From Bacteroidota bacterium (lineage in GTDB: Bacteria; Bacteroidota; JABWAT01): 55,347 nucleotides of DNA. The number at the start of each line of letters is the position of its first letter. The first letter of the stretch is position 1. Of this stretch, positions 1 through 11,820 are shown piece by piece. Both the position numbers and the translations under genes were made by a program. Location of the stretch: NCBI GenBank assembly GCA_017303995.1, contig JAFLBE010000027.1, forward strand, positions 1 through 55,347. Reading direction: 5' to 3'. The notes under the pieces are model-generated. The model did not search any database. It had not been told where the DNA came from and worked only from the letters and a program-made list of their open reading frames with translations.

Positions 1-1325
1 GTCATGATGCAACCAACCGCAATCATGAATCCACGTGCAATATTGATGGCATCGGCACCCAAACCAAGCGCAATACAAATCTGATCGGCGCTGTGAAGTT
101 TACCGGAAGCAATGAGCTTTACACGGTCACGAAGTCCGTATTTTCTCAGCGTATCATCGGCTATGACAAGACCGGAGAAAATGGGAAGTCCCATGGTATC
201 AGCCATTTCTTTGTAGGTTGCTCCGGAACCGCCTTCTCCCCCATCCACAGTAAAGAAATCGGGTCCATCACCTCTTTCCTTCATTCTTTCGCAAAGTTCT
301 TCGAGAGAAATATCACTGCCCACAACAACTTTAATTCCAACCGGTTTCCCGGAAACGTCCTGAAATTTGGCAACGAAATCAAGCAGCGAATCAACTGAAT
401 TAAATTCATCGAAACGGTTGGGTGATGATAACGTTTTCCAGGCTTCAACATTTCTGATTGCAGCAATTTCGGGAGTTACTTTAACGCCTTCAAGATGCCC
501 GCCTTTGATTTTGGCTCCCTGATGAAGTTTGATTTCGAACATTTTTACCTGCGGAAGCTGAGCCTTTTCTGCAACCAGATCCCAGTCCATTTTTCCGTCT
601 TTCGTTCGGTAACCAAACTTTCCGGAACCGAGTTGTGCAATAATATCTGCGCCCTTCAAATGAAACGGAGAAATGCCGCCTTCGCCGGTGTTGTGCCAGC
701 CCGAACCAGTAATTGCAAGTCCCCGGTTGATGGCTTCAAGGGCATTTGCTCCCAGCGAACCATAACTCATAGCAGAGCAACCGAACCAGGTTTTTGAGAC
801 AAACGGCTGCCGGCGGTCTTTACCAAAAATGATGGCATGTTCATCAGTAAGCTGCCAGGGTCTTACATCCACCCAAGAACTGGTTTGCTTCCGGGTAAAA
901 ACCCCTTCACTCACAACTTCATATTTGTGGGTTTTGAAAGTGAAACTGTTGTCAATTTTCAGTTCAGAATTTTGTTTCGGGAAAAGGGCGTTACTGAGGT
1001 AAAATCCGGGTTCGGTAAAGTCCCGTTTTGATCCGAACCCAATAACGGTTTTGCAATATTTTGCAGCAAAAATGATCGAAGTAAAGTGATTTCTGCTGAA
1101 CGGAGTTCCCTCATTATCGGTATCAGTAATGTAAAAACGAAACTCAGGACCCAGTTTTTCGATGAGATACCGCATGGTACCCAACAGCGGATGTTTTCTG
1201 AGGATGGAGTGACCCGATTGAAATTTATTGCGGAAGTAAAGAAATCCAATCAGGATGAGTGGACCCGCAACCATTACTAAAACCAGCACAAAAGTTACGA
1301 TCTGAAGTACGCTGAAATCCATCAT
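1..1325 (-). CDS. FMN-binding glutamate synthase-family protein (3' end beyond window)
   Basis: Reading the minus strand from the ATG at 1325 gives about 441 residues with no stop before the window edge, so the C-terminus is missing. An N-terminal membrane segment (about residues 6-27) is followed by a region matching the synthase domain of glutamate synthase large subunit: GSLGANALEAINRG, then HNTGEGGISPFH, AQLGSGKFGYR, then the FMN-site style VDGGEGGSGA and IASGKLHSADQICIALGLGA. The family uses FMN; stand-alone members with an N-terminal anchor occur widely and their true substrate is mostly unknown, so glutamate synthesis should not be assumed. A second in-frame ATG lies at 1322. The gene is divergent from the operon starting at 1525, with about 200 bases between them. 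Confidence 0.9.
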   Translation of the reverse strand, partial: MMDFSVLQIVTFVLVLVMVAGPLILIGFLYFRNKFQSGHSILRKHPLLGTMRYLIEKLGPEFRFYITDTDNEGTPFSRNHFTSIIFAAKYCKTVIGFGSKRDFTEPGFYLSNALFPKQNSELKIDNSFTFKTHKYEVVSEGVFTRKQTSSWVDVRPWQLTDEHAIIFGKDRRQPFVSKTWFGCSAMSYGSLGANALEAINRGLAITGSGWHNTGEGGISPFHLKGADIIAQLGSGKFGYRTKDGKMDWDLVAEKAQLPQVKMFEIKLHQGAKIKGGHLEGVKVTPEIAAIRNVEAWKTLSSPNRFDEFNSVDSLLDFVAKFQDVSGKPVGIKVVVGSDISLEELCERMKERGDGPDFFTVDGGEGGSGATYKEMADTMGLPIFSGLVIADDTLRKYGLRDRVKLIASGKLHSADQICIALGLGADAINIARGFMIAVGCIM

Positions 1326-1417
1326 TCCCCCCGCATTTTTCATTACGGACTAAAAGATAAGGGATTCATTTTGAATGGGCAAGAGGGAGCAATCATAAGG
1401 AATTCTTTTCTTTGGTT

Positions 1418-1446
1418 TTGACTTAATATTAATCATTGTTCATATT
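1418..1446 (+). promoter_or_regulatory. Possible sigma-70-type promoter for the 1525-6698 operon
   Basis: TTGACT at 1418-1423 and CATATT at 1441-1446 are separated by 17 bases and lie about 80 bases before the first gene of the operon, in the divergent intergenic region. The -35 box matches 5 of 6 consensus bases and the -10 box 4 of 6. FCB bacteria often use a different housekeeping consensus, so this is only a candidate. Confidence 0.3.
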
Positions 1447-1524
1447 TAAGTGTAAAGCCCGGAAGAAAGAAAGCCGGTAAATAGTTCTTATCGAATTTGC
1501 GGTTTCGTTCAGTTATAAAAGTTG

Positions 1525-1968
1525 ATGCCAATGAAAAAACTAAAATCGTCGGTTAAACCTCATCTTTCCTATTTGGAATTAAAGGAAAAACGTAAGAGGA
1601 TTGACAAAGAGGACGGGTTATTCTACAACCCTGGAGCAATTAAAATACTGTTTTTTGGTGCTCTTGCTCTTACAGGAATGTACTTTGCCGGATTCGGCGA
1701 GGAAGAGGAAACTCCGCTTTACAGAAGAATTTATAATACTCAGGCCGATTGCGAAAATGATTGGGGTGCCGGTTCAGCAACCAAAATTGGATCTGATTCA
1801 ACCTCGCATCCCTATTTCTACGGACCCAGGTATTATCTTGGTTCGGATGGAAGTTACATCACTGAGAACGGTCGGGTTGTTCGCCCTCAATTCATGCACG
1901 GAATGAATAGCGGTATCAGAAACGCAGGATTTGGCCGGTTTGGAAGCCGGTTTTCTCTGGGTTCCTGA
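1525..1968 (+). CDS. DUF1190/YgiB-like small membrane protein
   Basis: A 147-residue protein with a charged N-terminus (about 35 residues), one membrane segment at about residues 40-58 and an outside region rich in Gly, Tyr and Ser. It shares with YgiB/YjfM (DUF1190) the YRRIYNTQADCENDWGAGS-type segment (Tyr, then ADC followed by a short acidic/glycine stretch) and the Gly-Phe-Gly/Arg-Phe/Ser tail. Similarity is short and partly based on position: the next gene encodes a YgiC-like ATP-grasp protein, and ygiB-ygiC and yjfM-yjfC are neighbours in enterobacteria. One hypothesis for such proteins is that the C-terminal region is a modification target or a partner of the amidoligase; this is inference. 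ATG codons at 1525 and 1531 are both possible; the stop overlaps the next start by one base (TGATG). Confidence 0.6.
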   Translation: MPMKKLKSSVKPHLSYLELKEKRKRIDKEDGLFYNPGAIKILFFGALALTGMYFAGFGEEEETPLYRRIYNTQADCENDWGAGSATKIGSDSTSHPYFYGPRYYLGSDGSYITENGRVVRPQFMHGMNSGIRNAGFGRFGSRFSLGS

Positions 1969-3092
1969 TGAAGAGAATTGAAATCACGCCCCGGGAAAAC
2001 TGGAAAAAAGAATCAGAATTGTTAGGGTTTACCTGGCATACCGGGTTAAATCCCTACTGGAATGAATCGGCTTATTATGAATTTTCGGGGCAGGAAATCG
2101 CACAAATTGAACAGGCAACCCATTCCCTGAATCAGCTTTGCTATTTGGCTATTGAAAAAACCATCGAAAACAACCTGTTTGCTGACCTTAAAATTTCTGA
2201 TTCCCTCAGGGAACCCATCATTAAATCCTGGGAGCGGGATGATCCGACCATTTTTGGAAGAATGGATCTGGCTTATGACGGAATTAATCCGCCGAAATTT
2301 TTGGAATATAATGCCGATACTCCGACATCACTCCCCGAAGCAAGTTTGTTTCAATGGTATTGGCTGAAAGCTGTTTTTCCTGAAAATGACCAGTTTAATT
2401 CACTTCATGACTGCCTGACTGAACAAATGGAATGGCTGAAATCGGAAAAAAAAATCACCGAATTGTGGCTGACGACCATGGAAGGAAGTGATGAAGACTG
2501 GGGTAATCTTATTTATCTTGCTGATACAGCAGTTCAGTCCGGTATTAAAATTAATGTGATTCCGATTGAAGAAATCGGACATGACGGAAATCAATTTGTT
2601 GACGGTCACGGGAAAAATATTTCACGCCTTTTTAAACTCTATCCATGGGAATGGCTCGTCAATGAAGATGCCGGCCAGGAGGCCATAGATTCTGCAGGCC
2701 TTTTTATTGAACCCCTTTGGAAACTTATTTTGCAATCAAAAGGATTGCTGCCATTGCTTTGGAAGCTGTTCCCCGACCACCCAAACCTGCTCCCTGCTTA
2801 CCTTGAACCCAGACCAGATCTTATTTCTTTTGTAAAAAAACCGTTCTGGTCAAGGGAAGGAGCGAATATTACTATTTCTGATGGTCAAACTCATATTGAA
2901 ACCGGTGGGATGTATGGGTCCGAAGGGTTTATTTATCAGAAAAAAGCACCTTTATTTCAATCATCCGGAAACTATTCTGTCATTGGTTCCTGGATAGTTG
3001 GAGAAACCCCTGCCGGAATCGGTGTCAGGGAAGATCATTCACAGGTTATCACCAATTTAAGTCCGTTTGTACCACATATCATAAAGGAATAA
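1968..3092 (+). CDS. Glutathionylspermidine synthase-like ATP-grasp amidoligase (YgiC/YjfC type)
   Basis: A 374-residue ATP-grasp protein of the GSP_synth family. Visible motifs are the substrate/ATP-site FGRMDLAYDG (about 96-105), the metal/nucleotide motif FLEYNADTPTSLPEA (about 111-125), VKKPFWSREGANI (about 288-300), and the C-terminal IGSWIVGETPAGIGVRED (about 338-355). It is the length of E. coli YgiC and has no N-terminal CHAP amidase domain, unlike bifunctional Gsp. The family forms amide bonds at the cost of ATP between a carboxylate and an amine; for YgiC/YjfC the natural substrate is unsettled, so glutathionylspermidine should not be assumed. It overlaps the DUF1190-like gene by one base and precedes the DUF350 gene by 5 bases, which is the conserved neighbourhood of this subfamily. 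All key motifs seem intact, so it is probably active. Confidence 0.92.
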   Translation: MKRIEITPRENWKKESELLGFTWHTGLNPYWNESAYYEFSGQEIAQIEQATHSLNQLCYLAIEKTIENNLFADLKISDSLREPIIKSWERDDPTIFGRMDLAYDGINPPKFLEYNADTPTSLPEASLFQWYWLKAVFPENDQFNSLHDCLTEQMEWLKSEKKITELWLTTMEGSDEDWGNLIYLADTAVQSGIKINVIPIEEIGHDGNQFVDGHGKNISRLFKLYPWEWLVNEDAGQEAIDSAGLFIEPLWKLILQSKGLLPLLWKLFPDHPNLLPAYLEPRPDLISFVKKPFWSREGANITISDGQTHIETGGMYGSEGFIYQKKAPLFQSSGNYSVIGSWIVGETPAGIGVREDHSQVITNLSPFVPHIIKE

Positions 3093-3097
3093 GGATA

Positions 3098-3511
3098 ATG
3101 ACCCAGGAACTGTCAACACTAACCGAAAATGCGGTCTCCTTTTTAGCACACTTTGGAACTGCAGTCATTCTTTCTGCACTGTTTGTCTGGATTTATACCA
3201 AAATAACACCCTTTAAGGAAGTGGATCTGATCGCTCAGGGTAATAAATCAGCTGCTTACAGTTTCTCGGGTGCAACGCTTGGTTTTGTGATTGCCCTTTC
3301 AGGTGTCATCATCCATTCTGCAAGTTTACCCGGAATGATGATCTGGGGTTTCATTGCACTTTTGGTTCAAACCCTGACTTATCTTGCCCTCGCAAAGATT
3401 TTGCGTTCAATGCCTTCCGGAATAGAAAAAGGAATTGATTCCTATGGCATTTTTCTTGGCGGATGCTCCATTGCTGCCGGCATTTTAAATGCCGCTTGTA
3501 TGACTCCATGA
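3098..3511 (+). CDS. DUF350 (YjfL-like) membrane protein
   Basis: A 137-residue integral membrane protein with about four hydrophobic helices. Residues about 15-30 form the first, followed by the DUF350 hallmark stretch around residues 32-60 (KITPFKEVDLIAQGN then AAYSFSGATLGFVIALSG), in which a conserved polar helix end leads into a Gly-rich helix. DUF350 proteins sit in the inner membrane, often beside YgiC/YjfC ATP-grasp and DUF1190 genes; their function is not established. It begins 5 bases after the amidoligase stop, so the two are almost certainly co-transcribed. ATG at 3098 is preceded by AAGGATA, a fair ribosome-binding site. Family assignment is good; function is open. Confidence 0.85.
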   Translation: MTQELSTLTENAVSFLAHFGTAVILSALFVWIYTKITPFKEVDLIAQGNKSAAYSFSGATLGFVIALSGVIIHSASLPGMMIWGFIALLVQTLTYLALAKILRSMPSGIEKGIDSYGIFLGGCSIAAGILNAACMTP

Positions 3512-3546
3512 TCCAATATTTATCCTTTTAACTGGTAAAAGTAATT

Positions 3547-4416
3547 ATGAAATTCTTTTTTCTTTTTTTAATAACCGTTGGTTTCTTTTCAAATTTATAT
3601 GCCCAGCAGGATTCAATTCAAATTTTATCTAAACCGGATACAAGTAAAAAAATTGAATGGATTGAAGGGCCAGCGATGGTAAAAGTGGGAACCCTTGGTG
3701 AAATCAATCTGATTTTGGGTGAATATTTCGCAAACGGAGATGATACCAGGAAGTTTCTGACCTATAACGAAAACCTGACCAGCGACAAGGAAGTTGGAAT
3801 GGTTATTTCTGACTCATTAGGCTGGTGGACAGTTTTTGAATTTGACGGATCAGGTTATGTAAAAGATGATGAGAAAAATGATCTCGATTCAACTGCAATG
3901 ATGGTGACCATGCAGGAAAATCAGGAAGAAAGTAATAGTTACCGGGCTGAAAACGGAATGCCCAAAATGTCGATTCTTGGTTGGGCTGTTGCTCCTTACT
4001 ACAACTCACAGACTCATAATCTTGAATGGGCAATACGTGGGCACACTGAAGGTCACGAAAGTACTTTCATCAATCACAACGTTAAACTTCTGGGTCGATA
4101 TGGTGTGATGGAAGTTACCCTGGTTACTAGTCCCGAAAACTATCAGAGAGACCTGCCACTTTTCAGAGAAATGCTGACTCGCTACGAATTTCAGTCCGGA
4201 CAGAAATATGCTGAATTCCGTGAAGGAGATAAAATTGCTGAATATGGACTTACTGCACTTGTTCTGGGCGGTGCCGCAGCCGTTGCAGCAAAGTCAGGAT
4301 TTTTCAACGTGATTTTGAAGTCTCTTGCCGCATTCTGGAAGCTAATTGTTGTAGGAGTTGGTGCTGCCGGTTCAGCAATCTGGAAGTATTTCAGCAATAA
4401 AAAAGATAAGGAATAA
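3547..4416 (+). CDS. DUF2167 family membrane protein
   Basis: A 289-residue secreted/membrane protein. A signal peptide (residues 1-19, cleavage after YAQ) is followed by an extracytoplasmic domain with DUF2167 features: GPAMVKVGTLGEINL near residue 41, then GWWTVFEFDGSGYVKDDEK, GWAVAPYYNSQTHNLEWAI, NHNVKLLGRYGVMEVTLV and the typical GQKYAEFREGDKIAEYG (about 218-234). The C-terminus has two hydrophobic stretches (about 233-255 and 262-282) and a basic tail, so most of the protein should face the periplasm with a C-terminal anchor. DUF2167 has no settled function. It follows the DUF350 gene after 35 bases and precedes the next gene by 6, which places it inside the operon. Confidence 0.88.
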   Translation: MKFFFLFLITVGFFSNLYAQQDSIQILSKPDTSKKIEWIEGPAMVKVGTLGEINLILGEYFANGDDTRKFLTYNENLTSDKEVGMVISDSLGWWTVFEFDGSGYVKDDEKNDLDSTAMMVTMQENQEESNSYRAENGMPKMSILGWAVAPYYNSQTHNLEWAIRGHTEGHESTFINHNVKLLGRYGVMEVTLVTSPENYQRDLPLFREMLTRYEFQSGQKYAEFREGDKIAEYGLTALVLGGAAAVAAKSGFFNVILKSLAAFWKLIVVGVGAAGSAIWKYFSNKKDKE

Positions 4417-4422
4417 TTTTTC

Positions 4423-5565
4423 ATGGCTGGAATGGATTGGATCGTTCCGGCATTGATGCTGATTTACCTGGCAGAATGTTCTTTTGCTGTTTCACATTCC
4501 ACCATTATTTTTCGCAGATGGTTTAAATCAGAATTCAATGTCACGTTCACCTCAGCCTTTTTATCAAATGAGAAAAAAGGATTGATATTAACCTATCCGT
4601 TGCCACCATTTGGCAGAGTGTATCCGGTTTCGTCATTTTCATTTTCGTTTTCTTCTCAGGGATTCTGTCCGGTTTCTGGTTCGGTTGTCGGACCGGTTTT
4701 TCCTTCCAATGAAAAAATATGGTTCTGCCCCTGGGAAGATCTTAAGCAGGTTGTGGTTATCGACTCCAGATTACAAATCAATTCTTTTTCTGAAACTGAA
4801 CTCTTCACAGCAGACGATGCGAAACGCTGGGGTCAGTTTTTCAAATTGATGATCACGGTTCCAGAAAAGGAACGGGAAACCAGGATTCATTCTTTTCTTG
4901 ATTCATTTTTTCAAAAAGAACAAGCTTCAGCACAATTAACTGCTTCACAGAATCAAATTAAAATTGTGAACCGGATTGCCCTGATTGAGTGGATTTTTCT
5001 GTTTCTCTTTCTGCCATTTTTCATTTTGATTGCAGGGTTTGCAGAAACAGGCTTGTATTGGCTGATTGCTTTTCTTCTGGTTCACTTTTCACTGGTTTAT
5101 ATATCCGGTTTGTATGGTGTGTCCAGAAAACCTGATGTATCCTGGATTAAAAAAGCAGTTGAACTTTTCCACCTTTTCATTTCACCATTCTATGCCATGA
5201 GAACCGGTGACAGATTAGCAATTGTGGCCTTTTCTGGCATTCATCCGGTCATTGTATCTGAGCTTCTTTTGTCGCCGGATAAAAAAATGGGTTTTCTGTT
5301 GAAAGTAAAGAATGATTTGAGAAATCCGGTTGCAGGTTTGGGTCTGAGTGATTCAATTTCAGAAGCAGTGAGAGAAACAAATCTGAAAGTGTTGGGCTTA
5401 CTTGAAAAATATCAGCTTTCAGTTCCAGATTTAATTCCTTCGCTTGAAGCTGATTTTGAAATGAATTCATATTGTCCCCGTTGCCTGACTCCTTACAAGG
5501 TTGAATCTGGGTTTTGCAGTGACTGTCAGGGCATAGAACTTATCAAACAGGAAAGGATTTCCTAA
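4423..5565 (+). CDS. Unknown membrane protein with C-terminal zinc ribbon
   Basis: A 380-residue protein I do not recognise. It has an N-terminal hydrophobic segment (about 6-22), a soluble region rich in aromatic residues (about 30-180), a long hydrophobic block of probably two helices (about 186-232), a second soluble region, and at residues about 350-370 a compact CxxC-x11-CxxC module (YCPRC then FCSDC) that looks like a zinc ribbon. If the helices span the membrane, the ribbon probably lies in the cytoplasm, because cysteine zinc sites are rare in the periplasm; that is inference. It sits 6 bases after the DUF2167 gene and 3 bases before the next gene, so it is a candidate additional component of the amidoligase cassette. 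Enterobacterial yjf/ygi loci have no obvious equivalent. Confidence 0.7.
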   Translation: MAGMDWIVPALMLIYLAECSFAVSHSTIIFRRWFKSEFNVTFTSAFLSNEKKGLILTYPLPPFGRVYPVSSFSFSFSSQGFCPVSGSVVGPVFPSNEKIWFCPWEDLKQVVVIDSRLQINSFSETELFTADDAKRWGQFFKLMITVPEKERETRIHSFLDSFFQKEQASAQLTASQNQIKIVNRIALIEWIFLFLFLPFFILIAGFAETGLYWLIAFLLVHFSLVYISGLYGVSRKPDVSWIKKAVELFHLFISPFYAMRTGDRLAIVAFSGIHPVIVSELLLSPDKKMGFLLKVKNDLRNPVAGLGLSDSISEAVRETNLKVLGLLEKYQLSVPDLIPSLEADFEMNSYCPRCLTPYKVESGFCSDCQGIELIKQERIS

Positions 5566-5568
5566 ATC

Positions 5569-6087
5569 ATGACGATCTGGCTGATTATGGGTGGTGCCTT
5601 TTTTCTGGGCTTTTTTCTGGTTTCCAAACTGCTGGGCAGCGGGAATTCAGAGAAACCGGTATCTGTTAAAAATTCAACTGAACCCGAAGTTGTGCCTTCA
5701 GGAAAACAGGCGAATAATAGTGGAAATTATGTTTTATTTGGTGAACTTGTGTTGCTGATTTCAGTTGCATTTAACGGTAACCTGCCTCCCTGGTGTAAAG
5801 TCTTGCTTGAAGATTTTGGACAGCGAAAACTGGGTTGCTCAGATGATGAAATGGAAGGTGTCTTTTTACACCCGGTCAAAAATATTTTAAAAAATATGGA
5901 TGGTAGAGAATTGGCGGCTGCAATCAGGAATGGCAATGATTTAAGCGCAGGTTTGAATTTAAAAATTGCAGATCTGATTCAATCCATCATTGAAACTGCA
6001 AAGTCATCTGGTTCTGGTACTGAAGCAAAGGTACTGTCTGAATGGTTGATTGAATTGAACAAACGAGAATCGGCTATTTCGCTTTAA
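5569..6087 (+). CDS. Unknown small membrane-anchored protein
   Basis: A 172-residue protein with one N-terminal membrane helix (about 3-21), a short Ser/Asn/Pro-rich linker (about 24-50) and an all-helical-looking domain (about 51-170). The domain starts with a hydrophobic helix (YVLFGELVLLISVAFNG), followed by an acidic turn (GCSDDEMEG). This is faintly reminiscent of TerB-like helical domains, but the match is far too weak to assign. Spacing to both neighbours is 3-5 bases, so it belongs to the same transcript. There is no signal peptidase site, so the helix is best read as an uncleaved anchor. Function unknown. Confidence 0.65.
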   Translation: MTIWLIMGGAFFLGFFLVSKLLGSGNSEKPVSVKNSTEPEVVPSGKQANNSGNYVLFGELVLLISVAFNGNLPPWCKVLLEDFGQRKLGCSDDEMEGVFLHPVKNILKNMDGRELAAAIRNGNDLSAGLNLKIADLIQSIIETAKSSGSGTEAKVLSEWLIELNKRESAISL

Positions 6088-6092
6088 ACCAC

Positions 6093-6698
6093 ATGAAATT
6101 TTCAAGGTACCAAATGAACTCTAAATCTGTTTTCTCCTTTTTATTACTGTTTTTGTTTACCTCATGCATTCCCTATTCCACATTGCAAACTCCTGAGACC
6201 CTTCCTGAAGGAAAGTTTGAACTAAATGGAGGTGCCGGGTGGGTAGGTGAGACGGCTTTTGCATTGGAAGTTGGCAGCAGATACGGATTATTTGATAAAG
6301 TCGATATGGGACTCAAGTTTGCGCTTCCCGGAATTCTGCTGCTTGATGGAAAGTACAAGTTTTATGACTCGGGAATAAAGGCATCTGCCGATATGGGCGT
6401 TTCATATTATCTGGATGCAACCGCCGGTTCTGCATTTGGATTTTACCCGATGATTTTAATCGGGCAGGAGGTTTGGTATGCGGGTGTGAAAGGGAATTTC
6501 TTCTCAACAGCCGGGGATTTTAGCACTTTCGGAATGAAAAGTGATGTGAAGGATAGCCATTATCTGGCTACGAGCCTTGTTACCGGCTTTTGTTTTGGAA
6601 AAGAAAAAACCCGTCTTCTTTTTGAGCTCAACACCTTCATTCCAGTAGATTCAAAAGTGTTTTTTGTTCCGTCAGTTGGGGTTGCTTATAGGTTTTAA
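6093..6698 (+). CDS. Putative outer-membrane lipoprotein/beta-barrel protein
   Basis: A 201-residue protein with a lipoprotein-type signal: a hydrophobic run ending LFLFTSC, with the acylated cysteine at residue 25 from the ATG at 6093, or residue 18 if translation starts at the ATG at 6114. The rest alternates polar and hydrophobic/aromatic residues in strand-sized segments and ends in an aromatic residue (VGVAYRF), which suggests a small beta-barrel. It closes the seven-gene operon, 5 bases after the previous stop, and its 3' end is only 11 bases from the convergent gene at 6710. Its presence implies the operon's activity reaches the outer membrane. I recognise no named family. Confidence 0.65.
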   Translation: MKFSRYQMNSKSVFSFLLLFLFTSCIPYSTLQTPETLPEGKFELNGGAGWVGETAFALEVGSRYGLFDKVDMGLKFALPGILLLDGKYKFYDSGIKASADMGVSYYLDATAGSAFGFYPMILIGQEVWYAGVKGNFFSTAGDFSTFGMKSDVKDSHYLATSLVTGFCFGKEKTRLLFELNTFIPVDSKVFFVPSVGVAYRF

Positions 6699-6709
6699 TT
6701 TTTTGACAA

Positions 6710-8245
6710 TTACCACCATCCCCAAACCGGAATTTCAATACTTGCAGAATACCGTGGCTTCTCGTTTGTAAAGGTCACGTCTGCTGTCAACCAGTAAGGG
6801 GTTGTGATGTTGAAGGTTAAAAGCGGTGACCTGAAAGATCTGGTTTGCTTTTTTGAAAGAACAAGTTCCCAGTTTGAAACTCCCGTTTTACCAAATTGGA
6901 CTTGGTCGGTGATAATAAACCTTCTGAGTGTTTGAATATAAGTTGTTTTGCTTTTATAGGTCAGTGTTTCATTCCCGTTAATCCACCCGCCTTCAAGATT
7001 AAACCAGCTGTATCCAATCAATAAAAATGAAAATGAAACCCTGTAAGTTTCATAGTTCAACTTGAAATCCCCTTCAGTCACTTTGTAATTGATGGTATCA
7101 ACATAATTGAAAGTGGGATAAACGAATATGGTTGTGTCCAGATTTGAAGGAAATGCCTGTGTGGCTGATTCCTTCCGGAAAGAATATTTAAACTTCACCC
7201 AGGAAAACAAGCGCTGGTCATCCTTCCAGCTCAGTTTAATCCCGCCCGAAAAACTAACGGGTGAAAAAGATTGAGTAAGTTTTTTCAGGGGGAACGTAAT
7301 TGCCGTTAACTTTGCCTTTTCATTTATTTGCAGAACGGTTTCATCCGGATACCATTCAACGCCAGCAGACATCCAGGCACGAAACCGTATTTTTAAAAGA
7401 TCACGATCTGGCTGCTTTCTAAATCCCAATACTGAATTGTTGGTTTCGGGTGCCTGTGAAATATAGGGCTGTAATAAATAATCACTAACCCAAAAAGGGA
7501 GTCCTGCTCCGGGTATTGGGAGGTAATTTTGTTTTGCATCTGTTAATAATTCATACCAGTTAACTGAGTCCAATTCCTGACTGTTTAATAAATAAAATCT
7601 TGAGGATGCCATTTCACGTAAAATTTCATTTACGGTATAGTGTTCCCGGTTTTTCCAGATGTGCTTAAATTTTTCAGAAACAAGTCGTGAGATCGAATCC
7701 TGAATTGCAGAATATTGGTCTTGCCAGTTAACGTCAGGGTTGTATCTAATCCCGGGACTATTCTTGACATATAACCAGGAATAAAATCCCTGAAGGTTCA
7801 GATTTGTTTTTGGAGGTAACCCTAGCACTGAAGATCGGTATTCACTGCTGACCTGATTCAACTCAAGGCCTGACAATGCGAATAACAGCCGGGGTTTAAT
7901 TAGCATGGTAAGGGAGGTATCATCCATGACCTTTTTTCGCTCAGCTTCAAATAACGCGTTGTTTTTATTTTCATACGCCAAGCGAATACTATCAAGCAGC
8001 TGATTCCATATTTTCTGGCTTGCTCTGGGCTGGTTCAGTTTTTCAATGTGATAGTAGATCAGGTTCGGGTTTAGATTTCCCAAACTATCAATAATCTGGT
8101 CAAATTGGTTTTTTTGATTTTCTGTACCTAATAAGTTAATAGGTACAAAATTCTTGTATACGATTGCATGACGCTGAACAGGTTGTGCATGAATTGATTG
8201 AAATAAAATCAATCCTGCAATTACAGAAAGAAGGAGTTTGTACAT
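6710..8245 (-). CDS. Unknown secreted protein with possible C-terminal outer-membrane barrel
   Basis: From the ATG at 8245 the protein is 511 residues and begins with a clean signal peptide (MYKLLLSVIAGLILF, then SIHAQ). The reading frame is open upstream to 8323, but that extension has no signal-like character, so 8245 is preferred. Residues about 20-330 look helical and polar (repeated DSI and LNQ segments). Residues about 330-511 alternate in strands with many Tyr, Phe and Trp, ending in Trp-Trp, as outer-membrane barrels do. No catalytic motif is visible and I do not recognise a family. It is convergent with the operon ending at 6698 and 181 bases downstream of the TPR gene at 8427, possibly in the same transcript. 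Confidence 0.6.
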   Translation of the reverse strand: MYKLLLSVIAGLILFQSIHAQPVQRHAIVYKNFVPINLLGTENQKNQFDQIIDSLGNLNPNLIYYHIEKLNQPRASQKIWNQLLDSIRLAYENKNNALFEAERKKVMDDTSLTMLIKPRLLFALSGLELNQVSSEYRSSVLGLPPKTNLNLQGFYSWLYVKNSPGIRYNPDVNWQDQYSAIQDSISRLVSEKFKHIWKNREHYTVNEILREMASSRFYLLNSQELDSVNWYELLTDAKQNYLPIPGAGLPFWVSDYLLQPYISQAPETNNSVLGFRKQPDRDLLKIRFRAWMSAGVEWYPDETVLQINEKAKLTAITFPLKKLTQSFSPVSFSGGIKLSWKDDQRLFSWVKFKYSFRKESATQAFPSNLDTTIFVYPTFNYVDTINYKVTEGDFKLNYETYRVSFSFLLIGYSWFNLEGGWINGNETLTYKSKTTYIQTLRRFIITDQVQFGKTGVSNWELVLSKKQTRSFRSPLLTFNITTPYWLTADVTFTNEKPRYSASIEIPVWGWW

Positions 8246-8426
8246 TATTTTAACCCGGGATTTGGTTTGAACAAAACAAAAATAAATAAAGATTTGTGAA
8301 GAAACAAACCCGTTTACAATCACAACGCAGGCGAAATCGGCTTGTGGTTAAGTAAAATGAAGCAAATCTAAAGAAAACCTGCAATTCAGAAATAAAAACT
8401 GTTGCACGCAGAAATGACCAGTAAAC

Positions 8427-9758
8427 CTATTTTTCTTTCTTTTTTATACCGTAAAGTGAACCCATACAATCCGGGCAAATTCCATGACTGATCTGAGCTT
8501 CTGAATTTTCCATGATATAGCTTTCTATCTGACTCCAGAAACCGGAATCATCCCGCACTTTTTTACAATTCGCACAAATCGGAATAAATCCTTTCAGAAC
8601 TTTTACATTTTCAAGTGCGTCCTGGAGGTCAAGATTAATCACTTTCAGCGCATCATGACTTTCTTTCAATTCTTTAGATTTTTTCCGGTAAAGAAACAGG
8701 AAAACACCCAATCCGATAGAAAATAATAATAAACTGCCCACGGTAACAATCAAAAAAATCCGGGTTTGGTTCTGAATCCGGATATCCGTTTTCAGGAATT
8801 CAATTTCTCTTCTTTTCAATTCTGTATCCAGGCTATTCTGAAAATCGGCCGTCATCCTGCTGATATCGTCATCTCTGAGCAGTTCTTTAACTCCTATGAA
8901 ATTTTTATAGGAACTTAACGCTTCTTCCGGTTTCCCGACAAGTTCAAAATATTCGGCCTGGATCCGGTAAAAATCTCTGATTTCATTTTTAAAATCATGA
9001 GGTTCCACAATAGAAAACGCCGAATCAAGATAAAGCCGGGCTTCTTGTGTTTTCCTTTCTTTGACATTAAGACTGGCAAGGTCAAGGTAACCTACTGCTA
9101 AAAATTTAAGATGTTCCGGGTGGTTTGATACTGAACGGACCGCCGATTTTAATAGGATCCGGGCAGAATCCGTTTTTCCAAGTGCGAGATATGTTCTTCC
9201 CAGGTAAATCCGGATTACATCCGCATTTTCAGGTGTTTTCCCCGATTCATATAATCTTACCGATTCATTTAAATAAGTGAGTGCTGAATCTGGCTTACCA
9301 AGTTTTTGGTAGCTGATTCCAATATTTCCTGTTTGACGGGCCTCGAATTTATGGATCCCTGCTTTAAGATAGGTTTCACGGGAATTTTTGAAAAAGGAAA
9401 CGGCTTCCTGATACCGACCCTGATTTGAATACACATTTCCAATATAATTCTGAACTGATCCGATTCCTTCCAGACTTCCTGTTTCAAGATATAGACCGTA
9501 AGCTTTTAAAAATTGCTGATGTGCTTCTGAAGCAAGCCCCTTCTGAAGAAGTGAAAAGCCAATATTGGAAAAGGCTTCAGCAAGATCATTGAGTGAATCC
9601 TCTGCTGCTGCCATGATGGCTGCCTGATTAGCATAAAACTCGGCTGAATCCGGGTTGAGATAAAAAAAGGATTTTGCCCGCTGATTCAGTGAATCGGCAG
9701 ACTGGGCGAAGGAAACGTGAAAAACAAATCCAAGAATAAGAGGCAAAAACGATTTCAT
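8427..9758 (-). CDS. TPR sensor-like protein with C-terminal Cys-rich module
   Basis: A 443-residue protein: signal peptide (1-18, FAQ), about seven tetratricopeptide repeats (about 25-290, e.g. NYIGNVYSNQGRYQEAVSFF), a coiled-coil stretch, one membrane helix (about 331-355), a second cytoplasmic coiled coil, and a C-terminal module at about 390-435 with ICANCKKVRDD, a Trp/Tyr stretch and HGICPDC. That last CxxC...HGICPxC module is common at the C-terminus of PAS-containing and response-regulator signalling proteins and probably binds zinc. There is no kinase, cyclase or DNA-binding domain, so the output must go through a partner. The architecture suggests periplasmic sensing transmitted to a cytoplasmic adaptor. 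Confidence 0.75.
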   Translation of the reverse strand: MKSFLPLILGFVFHVSFAQSADSLNQRAKSFFYLNPDSAEFYANQAAIMAAAEDSLNDLAEAFSNIGFSLLQKGLASEAHQQFLKAYGLYLETGSLEGIGSVQNYIGNVYSNQGRYQEAVSFFKNSRETYLKAGIHKFEARQTGNIGISYQKLGKPDSALTYLNESVRLYESGKTPENADVIRIYLGRTYLALGKTDSARILLKSAVRSVSNHPEHLKFLAVGYLDLASLNVKERKTQEARLYLDSAFSIVEPHDFKNEIRDFYRIQAEYFELVGKPEEALSSYKNFIGVKELLRDDDISRMTADFQNSLDTELKRREIEFLKTDIRIQNQTRIFLIVTVGSLLLFSIGLGVFLFLYRKKSKELKESHDALKVINLDLQDALENVKVLKGFIPICANCKKVRDDSGFWSQIESYIMENSEAQISHGICPDCMGSLYGIKKKEK

Positions 9759-9780: not shown

Positions 9781-10011
9781 GTGTGATCTGATTTTAAAAA
9801 GATAAAAATAGGAAAAGATTTTTTGGTTTTATTTTTTAATTCAGATTGTTGGTCTGTTGAACCCATTTTCAGGTATAGTGTTACTGAATTTGTGTTTTCT
9901 GATAAATAAGAGTCCAAATTGAACTTGCCTGAATTTCTCATTACTGCCGTTTAAGTTTTTTCAGTTCATAAAAATGAGTAATTTCTTTTTAGTCCTTAAA
10001 TCAGGTCTCCA

Positions 10012-11820
10012 ATGAAAAAAAATCTATTCTCCTTGCTGGCAATTCTCTTTTTGAGTATTCCGTTCACTTTTGCCCAATATCACGTTAAAAGTCAGTATCT
10101 CAAGACCCCGGATCTTATTCTCGGATATGTTGATAGCTGTGCGGCTTTCTGGGATTCTGCTTTAGACAAGTCTTCGATTGGTGGGTTTTTTACCAATATT
10201 GACCGTCAGGGAAATGTACTTACTTCCTGGGGAACCAGTAAGGACATGATCAGTCAGTCAAGAAACGCTTATGGTCTTACCCGTGCTTTCATGATGACAG
10301 GAAATGAAACTTACCTGAACCAGGGTCAAAAAGGACTCGATTTCATGTATAAATTTGCCTGGGACAAAACCTATGGCGGATGGTTCAATTCGATTTCATC
10401 AAGCGGATCGGTGAATTCAATCAACGGAAATAAGTATGCCTTTTATCAGCATTATGCTTTGTTGGGGTTAATGGCAAAGGTTGAAGTCACCGGCGATACG
10501 ACGGCAATGGGTTGGTTTAACAAAGGATATCAGTATAACGAAACCGTTTTATGGGATTCAAATCCGGCTAGATTCGGCTACTTCAATTCACTCAGCAGAA
10601 ATGGCTCAACCCGCAGCGGAAAAACATTTAATTCAACTGTTGATGCAATTACGACCCATCTGTTAAATATGTATCTCTTGACCGGCGAAGAAAAATATAA
10701 AACCCGGATGCTTGAAGTTGCTTCAAATATGGTTGACCGGCTTGCAAAAACAATGGATGCCCAGGAAATCGGATTTGCAGAAAATTACAACACAGACTGG
10801 ACCTATAACAATAGCACATCAAATGACAATACCCGTACGATCATGGGGCACGTTCTGAAAACTGCATGGTGTCTCGGTCGTGTTTATCAGTTCGAAAAAA
10901 ACGAAGTCTATCTGCAAACTGCAATTAAGCTTGCAGATCACGTTCTGGCAAAAGGGTATGATCATGTTTATGGCGGTCCTTTCAAAGATTATGACCGGGT
11001 GTCGGGAGAAATGTTGCTATATGGTCAGCCCGATTCGGCAAAAGCCTGGTGGCAAATGGAACAGGCAATTACAGCCGGTTTGTTTTTGTATGATCTCACC
11101 GGCGATGACAAGTATCTTAAAATGGCAGATGAAACCTTGAGTTTTTACATGACTCATTTTGTTGATCATGAGTATGGTGAAGTTTATGAAAATCAGTTGC
11201 GCCGGGGCGGATTTATCTGGAATGATGCAAAAGCCGGCGGCGGAAAAGCTGCCTACCATTCGATTGAAACCGGATATTATGTTTATCTGTACGGTAACCT
11301 GATGCTTCATAAAAAACCGGTGACTCTGTACTACAAATACTCACCACTGAACCAGGATCGGGTTGTGCAATTATATCCGCTCGAAATCAGTTCTGATCAG
11401 TACCGGATTAAGTCAGTCGAAAAAGACGGACAAACCTACTCTGACTTTTTATCGCAGGAAAAAAAATTGACCATTCCCTCTGGCGTGAATGGCGTTTTTA
11501 AAGTGGTTTTTGAAAGTTCGACCGGTGTTTCTGTGGCTGATAATCAAAAAGCAGTAAAAAGATTATCACTTGAACAGAATTACCCGAACCCATTCAATCC
11601 GATAACAAAAATCAACTATCAGGTTTCTTCTCAGGGCGTCGTTTCCCTCAAGGTTTTTGATATGCAGGGCAGAGAAATCCGTTCGCTGGTTAACGAACAA
11701 AAAGCACCGGGAACCTATTCTGTTAGTTTTGACGGGGCAGGACTTTCAAGCGGAATTTATTTATATCAAATCAAATCGGGAAATGTAACTGAAACCAAAG
11801 GAATGCTTCTGTTAAAATAA
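10012..11820 (+). CDS. Secreted AGE-family (cellobiose 2-epimerase-like) protein with T9SS sorting domain
   Basis: A 602-residue exported protein. A signal peptide (1-21, FAQ) precedes an (alpha/alpha)6-barrel of the N-acylglucosamine/cellobiose 2-epimerase superfamily (about 30-430). Visible family features are GGFFTNIDRQG, SRNAYGLTRAF, YGGWFNSI, KYAFYQHYALLGL, the helix with MGHVLKTAWCLGR and KAWWQMEQAITAGLFLYDLTGD. A linker region follows, and at about 525-602 a type-A sorting domain (NYPNPFNP, then SSGIYLYQI and the basic C-terminal strand). Known epimerases are cytoplasmic; export through T9SS suggests action on extracellular glycans, possibly as hydrolase or epimerase. Superfamily is confident; reaction is not. 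The gene is monocistronic and divergent from the TPR gene. Confidence 0.85.
   Translation: MKKNLFSLLAILFLSIPFTFAQYHVKSQYLKTPDLILGYVDSCAAFWDSALDKSSIGGFFTNIDRQGNVLTSWGTSKDMISQSRNAYGLTRAFMMTGNETYLNQGQKGLDFMYKFAWDKTYGGWFNSISSSGSVNSINGNKYAFYQHYALLGLMAKVEVTGDTTAMGWFNKGYQYNETVLWDSNPARFGYFNSLSRNGSTRSGKTFNSTVDAITTHLLNMYLLTGEEKYKTRMLEVASNMVDRLAKTMDAQEIGFAENYNTDWTYNNSTSNDNTRTIMGHVLKTAWCLGRVYQFEKNEVYLQTAIKLADHVLAKGYDHVYGGPFKDYDRVSGEMLLYGQPDSAKAWWQMEQAITAGLFLYDLTGDDKYLKMADETLSFYMTHFVDHEYGEVYENQLRRGGFIWNDAKAGGGKAAYHSIETGYYVYLYGNLMLHKKPVTLYYKYSPLNQDRVVQLYPLEISSDQYRIKSVEKDGQTYSDFLSQEKKLTIPSGVNGVFKVVFESSTGVSVADNQKAVKRLSLEQNYPNPFNPITKINYQVSSQGVVSLKVFDMQGREIRSLVNEQKAPGTYSVSFDGAGLSSGIYLYQIKSGNVTETKGMLLLK

Follow-up and report, generated by a model that had tools for sequence, protein, structure and literature searches.

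Gene content of the locus

The subject of this analysis is a run of seven genes (here A to G, all on the plus strand) in a 55,347-nucleotide stretch of DNA from a Bacteroidota bacterium (assembly GCA_017303995.1, contig JAFLBE010000027.1), referred to below, at its full length, as the window. Particular attention is given to the ATP-grasp ligase encoded by gene B and to the small protein encoded immediately upstream by gene A. Genes A and B overlap by a single base, and the subsequent gaps measure 5, 35, 6, 3 and 5 bases, the largest of these (35 bases) separating C from D. An earlier sequence-only reading had proposed this order and tight spacing, which the coordinates of the open reading frames (ORFs) confirm, and had recognized a YgiC-like ATP-grasp protein, a DUF350 protein and a DUF2167 protein, three labels borne out by Pfam matches that all exceed the curated cut-offs. 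Gene B matches PF03738 (GSP_synth) along profile positions 1-371 of 371 (443.7 bits, E = 7.6e-133), gene C matches PF03994 (DUF350; 110.2 bits against a cut-off of 26, E = 1e-31), and gene D matches PF09935 (DUF2167; 219 bits against a cut-off of 25, E = 7.1e-65). No accepted Pfam or NCBIfam family covers gene A, E, F or G, the last three having been described as unrecognized from the outset. Terminator-like sites inside the operon number 5 (5.7 being expected from shuffled sequence) and none is prominent; both modules described below are probably carried on one transcript. A role in anti-phage defence was considered and dropped, as PADLOC gave no match for any of the seven genes. All features are collected in Table 1.

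Table 1. Features of the locus, in window coordinates.
Feature	Position	Strand	Remarks
Stretch specific to the window	1389-3591		A-B-C and the first 45 bases of D; G011 has about 181 unrelated bases instead
Candidate shared promoter	1417-1447	+	TTTGACTTA..ATTAA......GTTCAT.TTT; upstream of A
Gene A	1525-1968	+	Small, membrane-anchored protein with disordered tail ...IRNAGFGRFGSRFSLGS; proposed substrate of B; alternative starts 1522 (TTG) and 1531 (ATG)
C-terminal (R)GGFG-type tail of A	1918-1965	+	NAGFG, then 10 residues, ending GS
Gene B	1968-3092	+	ATP-grasp amide ligase, YgiC/YjfC (peptide-spermidine ligase) group
Gene C	3098-3511	+	DUF350 (YjfL-type) integral membrane protein
Gene D	3547-4416	+	DUF2167 protein; signal peptide and C-terminal hydrophobic segment; opens the second module
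Gene E	4423-5565	+	Membrane protein; C-terminal CPRC...CSDC zinc-ribbon-like motif
Gene F	5569-6087	+	Membrane-anchored protein without known family
Gene G	6093-6698	+	Lipoprotein/outer-membrane-barrel-like protein (judged by eye)
Site of the extra gene H of G011, between F and G	6103-6154		52 unrelated bases here; G011 9828-10690 has no window counterpart

Two modules rather than one cassette

The seven ORFs are two modules, A-B-C (1525-3511) and D-E-F-G (3547-6698), with the boundary falling exactly at the 35-base gap. The division is seen most directly in two congeners of the source organism, here designated G011 and G006, of which G011 is the nearest relative in the comparison (the collection used holds only four genomes of this class). 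Both congeners carry the DUF2167 gene and E, with D syntenic in each without A-B-C, and neither genome contains a PF03738 match anywhere. Their loci read D-E-F followed by a lipoprotein gene, H, and adjoin the same glutamate-synthase-like gene; G occupies the same place in G011 and was not found at the G006 locus. At the nucleotide level (blastn), window positions 1-1388 and 3592-6102 align to G011 with 93% and 89% identity, respectively, and nothing aligns between 1388 and 3592.

The same division emerges from the surroundings of related ligases. A set of 91 ligase loci was assembled from the 80 best relatives of B in named genomes, found by a search with the B alignment, and 11 loci from the phylum; since the 80 are the ones closest to B, remote PF03738 families are under-represented. 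Homologues of D, E, F or G lie near the ligase in 0 of these 91 loci. DUF2167 occurs in 8 of 50 ligase-bearing genomes, in none of these 8 near the ligase, nor at any ligase locus examined, and in the complete chromosome of Betaproteobacteria GR16-43 the two are some 261 kb apart. The sequence-only reading had presented a single seven-gene cassette and held DUF2167 to recur beside ligase and DUF350 genes; neither claim survives these comparisons, and homologues of the last three genes lie mostly away from ATP-grasp/DUF350 loci, which that reading had itself named as grounds for refutation. Its notion of an amidoligase acting with a DUF350 protein and a small modified partner is retained. Tight spacing on one strand and a probable common transcript would suit the view that all seven genes form one functional system, but with D-E-F present minus A-B-C in both congeners, and A-B-C found without D-G everywhere else examined, we regard that view as highly improbable and already largely refuted. 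As a seven-gene unit the locus is ruled out by the G011/G006 synteny and the 91 ligase loci, and D-E-F-G should consequently not be studied as amidoligase partners.

A conserved C-terminal tail beside the ligase

The 80 best relatives of B come from Pseudomonadota, Nitrospirota, Acidobacteriota, Planctomycetota, Verrucomicrobiota, Actinomycetota, Chloroflexota, Myxococcota, Gemmatimonadota, Bacteroidota and others, and neighbourhoods combining the ligase with an A-type or DUF350 gene span at least ten phyla. An A-type gene lies directly upstream of the ligase in about 70 of the 91 loci, and a DUF350 gene adjoins it in about 52 (downstream in 31, upstream in 21), the A-B-C order itself recurring in beta- and deltaproteobacteria, Nitrospirota and others. 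ORFs at these loci were called mechanically, so that starts in high-G+C genomes are often placed well before the true ones; this leaves untouched the C-termini from which the argument is drawn. The DUF350 proteins also end alike (NAACMTP in gene C, NAACMTW in E. coli YjfL), possibly a second conserved C-terminal element of the cassette.

In an alignment of 69 A-type proteins, which otherwise vary almost completely between phyla, the only invariant column is the second glycine of a GFG motif close to the C-terminus, and the first glycine and the phenylalanine are at least 90% conserved. The DUF1190 model matches 17 of the 69 and most of the others match no Pfam family at all, so that what characterizes the partner is its tail rather than any known fold. 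Protein A of the window, which had been labelled DUF1190, gives no match to that model (PF06693) at E values up to 1; the label is rejected on this ground, and A is nonetheless the counterpart of DUF1190 proteins by position and tail motif. Its tail, GIRNAGFGRFGSRFSLGS, closely resembles the Pseudomonas tail VTRSGFGRSGARFSGGG. An AlphaFold2 (AF2) model of only moderate confidence (mean predicted local distance difference test score, pLDDT, 66) has one membrane-type helix (residues 34-51), a small domain (about 61-118, pLDDT 72-88) and a predicted disordered tail (pLDDT about 48). With its position adjacent to the ligase, its GFG-type motif and its disordered tail, A is found among the tail-bearing ligase partners, a group delimited in the present analysis.

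Because a profile of A could itself favour the motif, counts were also made by position only. In 71 of 90 loci the ORF immediately preceding the ligase contains GFG within its final 45 residues, compared with 92 of 6,856 other ORFs, and shuffled tails contain it in 11% of cases. The exact RGGFG stands near the C-terminus of an ORF beside the ligase in 50 of 90 loci (0.1 expected) versus 1 of 5,924 other ORFs, and once the variants GLG, GYG and GIG are included the count rises to 85 of 90 versus 11.6 expected. Twelve plasmid loci, kept out of all model building and read afterwards, carry the motif in a gene adjoining the ligase in nine cases, three of these downstream of it. The nine include a Nostoc locus, where the ligase shares no more than 24% identity with B. 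Of the other three, the Virgibacillus locus has SGIG in the gene next to the ligase, and those of Photobacterium and Azospirillum brasilense showed no convincing tail. In E. coli, YgiB has RGGFG and YjfM (tail SRGGYGRSSSARGHWGG) the close variant RGGYG. This apparently family-wide tail is the main new observation of the present analysis, its novelty being judged against the open-access literature.

The ligase and its probable reaction

The closest solved structure to B (374 residues) is that of YgiC (PDB 7uk8, E = 5.5e-90), with YjfC also matching strongly (PDB 7uk6, E = 9.2e-77), both along the length of B; Gss is a far weaker match, and B has no amidase domain. Residues R98, D100, E113, N115, K258, K291 and R354 of B align with Gss R316, D318, E330, N332, K498, K533 and R598, which we take to be ATP/metal residues. 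Presumed glutathione contacts of Gss, in turn, are changed in much the same manner in B, YgiC and YjfC (S335T, S337T, T441L and T446W/F). By these comparisons B is a ligase of the YgiC/YjfC group rather than of the Gss type. In a tree, one large group holds both YgiC and YjfC, the exact branch of B not being fixed; sampled genomes of the phylum fall among named Bacteroidota in this tree. Gss, which belongs to this family too, has the C-terminal glycine carboxylate of glutathione as its target.

YgiC and YjfC are peptide-spermidine ligases according to the account given in PMC12568646, which cites Pederick et al. 2023. Their RefSeq names agree with this activity, and by homology B may similarly join a peptide to spermidine. 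In the open-access literature searched, no physiological peptide was named for YgiC or YjfC.

Proposed capping of protein A

When a short conserved motif lies in a disordered tail and is encoded beside a ligase with relatives that form amides at C-terminal carboxylates, the best interpretation is that it serves in substrate recognition. A would thus be the likely substrate of B, its C-terminus the probable site of the new bond, and a polyamine the presumptive amine. In the proposed mechanism B would bind A through the GFG-type motif of its disordered tail and use ATP to phosphorylate the C-terminal carboxylate of that tail; a primary amine, most likely a polyamine, would then attack and join the carboxylate, and the capped protein, which thereby gains a positive charge at its end, would work at the membrane with the DUF350 protein C. 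The first module would accordingly be a cassette that caps a protein with a polyamine, of the same type as E. coli YgiBC/YjfLMC, with the second a separate operon behind it, a reading that we hold to be probable, if only to a modest degree. The earlier reading had suggested the small Gly/Tyr-rich protein at 1525 as a possible modified partner, an idea to which the conserved tail of its counterparts lends considerable support.

Several observations weigh against capping. The open-access literature searched reports no modified A-type protein. Since B is cytoplasmic and requires ATP, whereas A is a predicted membrane-anchored or exported protein whose C-terminus probably lies outside the cytoplasm, capping would have to precede translocation. 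The source genome yielded neither a spermidine synthase (PF01564) nor an S-adenosylmethionine decarboxylase (PF02675), and its only nspC-like gene (G000:C39:3287-4360, L129) reaches 52 bits where the cut-off is 409; in view of this lack of recognizable spermidine pathway genes, the amine may be another polyamine or may be imported. The most divergent PF03738 proteins of the phylum (L012-L018) have no tail-bearing upstream neighbour within 1.5 kb, the tail in the window is itself a degenerate version of the motif (NAGFG), and the last residue of the 69 A-type proteins is not fixed (S in 31, G in 29, E in 6). As a separate observation, the nspC-like gene looks like a relative of diaminopimelate decarboxylase (LysA-like).

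Variation at the end of the tail bears on the possibility that GGFG is a docking tether only, by which B is held at the membrane while it modifies another substrate. The motif mostly stands 7-13 residues from the end (61 of 68 motif tails), the terminal residues vary, and the YjfM and YgiB tails differ in length, all of which such a tether would accommodate. Yet in nearly all of the proteins the motif is near the C-terminus, the small end residues (GG, SS or GS in 57 of 69) would fit an amide-ligase acceptor, and the action of Gss on a C-terminal glycine carboxylate points the same way; we consider a pure tether quite improbable. Another alternative is that B makes a small peptide-polyamine conjugate resembling glutathionylspermidine, A being an envelope protein in its own right, structural or metal-binding, with a downstream role and a tail that serves otherwise, for instance in binding DUF350 or the membrane. 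The activity of the related Gss on glutathione, the description of DUF1190 as a 'metal-chelating lipoprotein' (PMC11237479) and a lipobox in 48 of 69 A-type proteins (by a loose pattern), which fits an envelope role, are in keeping with this. It is countered by the changes at the presumed glutathione contacts in B, YgiC and YjfC, and by the only conserved element of A being a tail predicted to be unstructured rather than a metal-binding fold, and we think it unlikely.

Extended beyond this locus, capping would make YgiC/YjfC-type ligases a bacteria-wide system for C-terminal polyaminylation of proteins, the substrates being adjacent, hardly related membrane proteins with (R)GGFG tails, A included; this generalization is put forward tentatively, with slightly more doubt than belief. 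The tail, found in neighbouring proteins from Proteobacteria to Nostoc, names a concrete candidate for the missing substrate of E. coli YgiC/YjfC; it would also provide a common rationale for DUF1190 and the unnamed tail-bearing partners, and a general route to finding the substrate beside any such ligase.

Origin of A-B-C at this site

The candidate promoter upstream of A recurs as the same block, ungapped, ahead of D in both congeners, which are without A-B-C, the match being weaker in G006 than in G011. Its significance is moderate, 11 of 500 shuffles reaching the local score between window and G011. That the block precedes A in the window and D in the congeners suggests that A-B-C lies between an old promoter and D, and weakly points to A sharing the former promoter of D. 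Gain of A-B-C at this site is favoured over loss, by parsimony only. D-E-F-G (with H in the relatives) would then be the older, genus-specific envelope operon, with A-B-C placed in front of it, downstream of the old promoter. Foreign origin was rejected on composition, the G+C content of A-B-C (42-44%) showing no clear difference from that of the window (42.4%). Nor is transfer claimed on phylogenetic grounds, although B falls outside the main Bacteroidota group of the tree (support for that group 83/90), the place of B itself not being fixed.

The second module and its surroundings

Signal peptides and membrane segments suggest that D-E-F-G is an envelope operon. Homologues of E are confined to 3 of 394 genomes of the phylum, all of its own genus (there is also a weak match of 40 residues), and its four cysteines are invariant in the three sequences; its structure prediction was uninformative (single-sequence AF2, pLDDT 40). 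F is similarly found in 3 of 247 genomes, all of the same genus, DUF2167 is sporadic (5 of 247), and D has no match in the PDB. H, a lipoprotein gene of 245 residues, follows F in both congeners (L038:5394-6131 and L039:5910-6647, both on the minus strand) and is missing from the window.

Beyond G, a large envelope-type protein without a Pfam family (6710-8323, minus strand) is missing from the corresponding position in G011, and several weak paralogues of it stand beside the glutamate-synthase-like gene in G006 (L039:11061-14807). It is followed by a tetratricopeptide repeat protein with a transmembrane helix and a zinc-ribbon-like C-terminal end, CANC...CPDC (8427-9758, minus strand), and by a secreted protein whose end resembles a type IX secretion C-terminal sorting domain (10012-11820, plus strand).

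Comparison with known systems

Through its clear Pfam match, gene D resembles the DUF2167 proteins of Proteobacteria and Bacteroidota. Of two annotated DUF2167 genes on plasmids, the one in Bradyrhizobium has conjugation genes as neighbours and the one in Caballeronia nitrate transport genes; neither adjoins a ligase. Gss and trypanothione synthetase have the ATP-grasp family and catalytic residues in common with B, but differ in that B is without the amidase domain and is changed at the presumed glutathione-contact positions.

Among described systems, the closest to A-B-C are ygiBC and yjfLMC of E. coli, together with the ATP-grasp/DUF350/DUF1190 operons of PMC11237479. In E. coli ygiB-ygiC a small tail-bearing membrane protein (TRGGFG...SMGG) is likewise encoded directly upstream of the ligase, but no DUF350 gene lies beside ygiC, A falls outside the DUF1190 model, and a gap of 5 bases takes the place of the 1-base A/B overlap seen here. 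The PspA-linked operons, E. coli yjfIJKLMC and P. aeruginosa bac, offer a likeness in the E. coli DUF350 protein YjfL, the tail-bearing DUF1190 protein YjfM (SRGGYG...HWGG) and the ligase YjfC, whereas the window has the order A-B-C, with DUF350 last. Pfam found no match to PspA, DUF2170 or DUF2491 among the seven genes, which sets the locus apart from the PspA-linked yjf-type operons. The three-gene part of the locus is a further example of the already known ygiBC/yjfLMC-type module.

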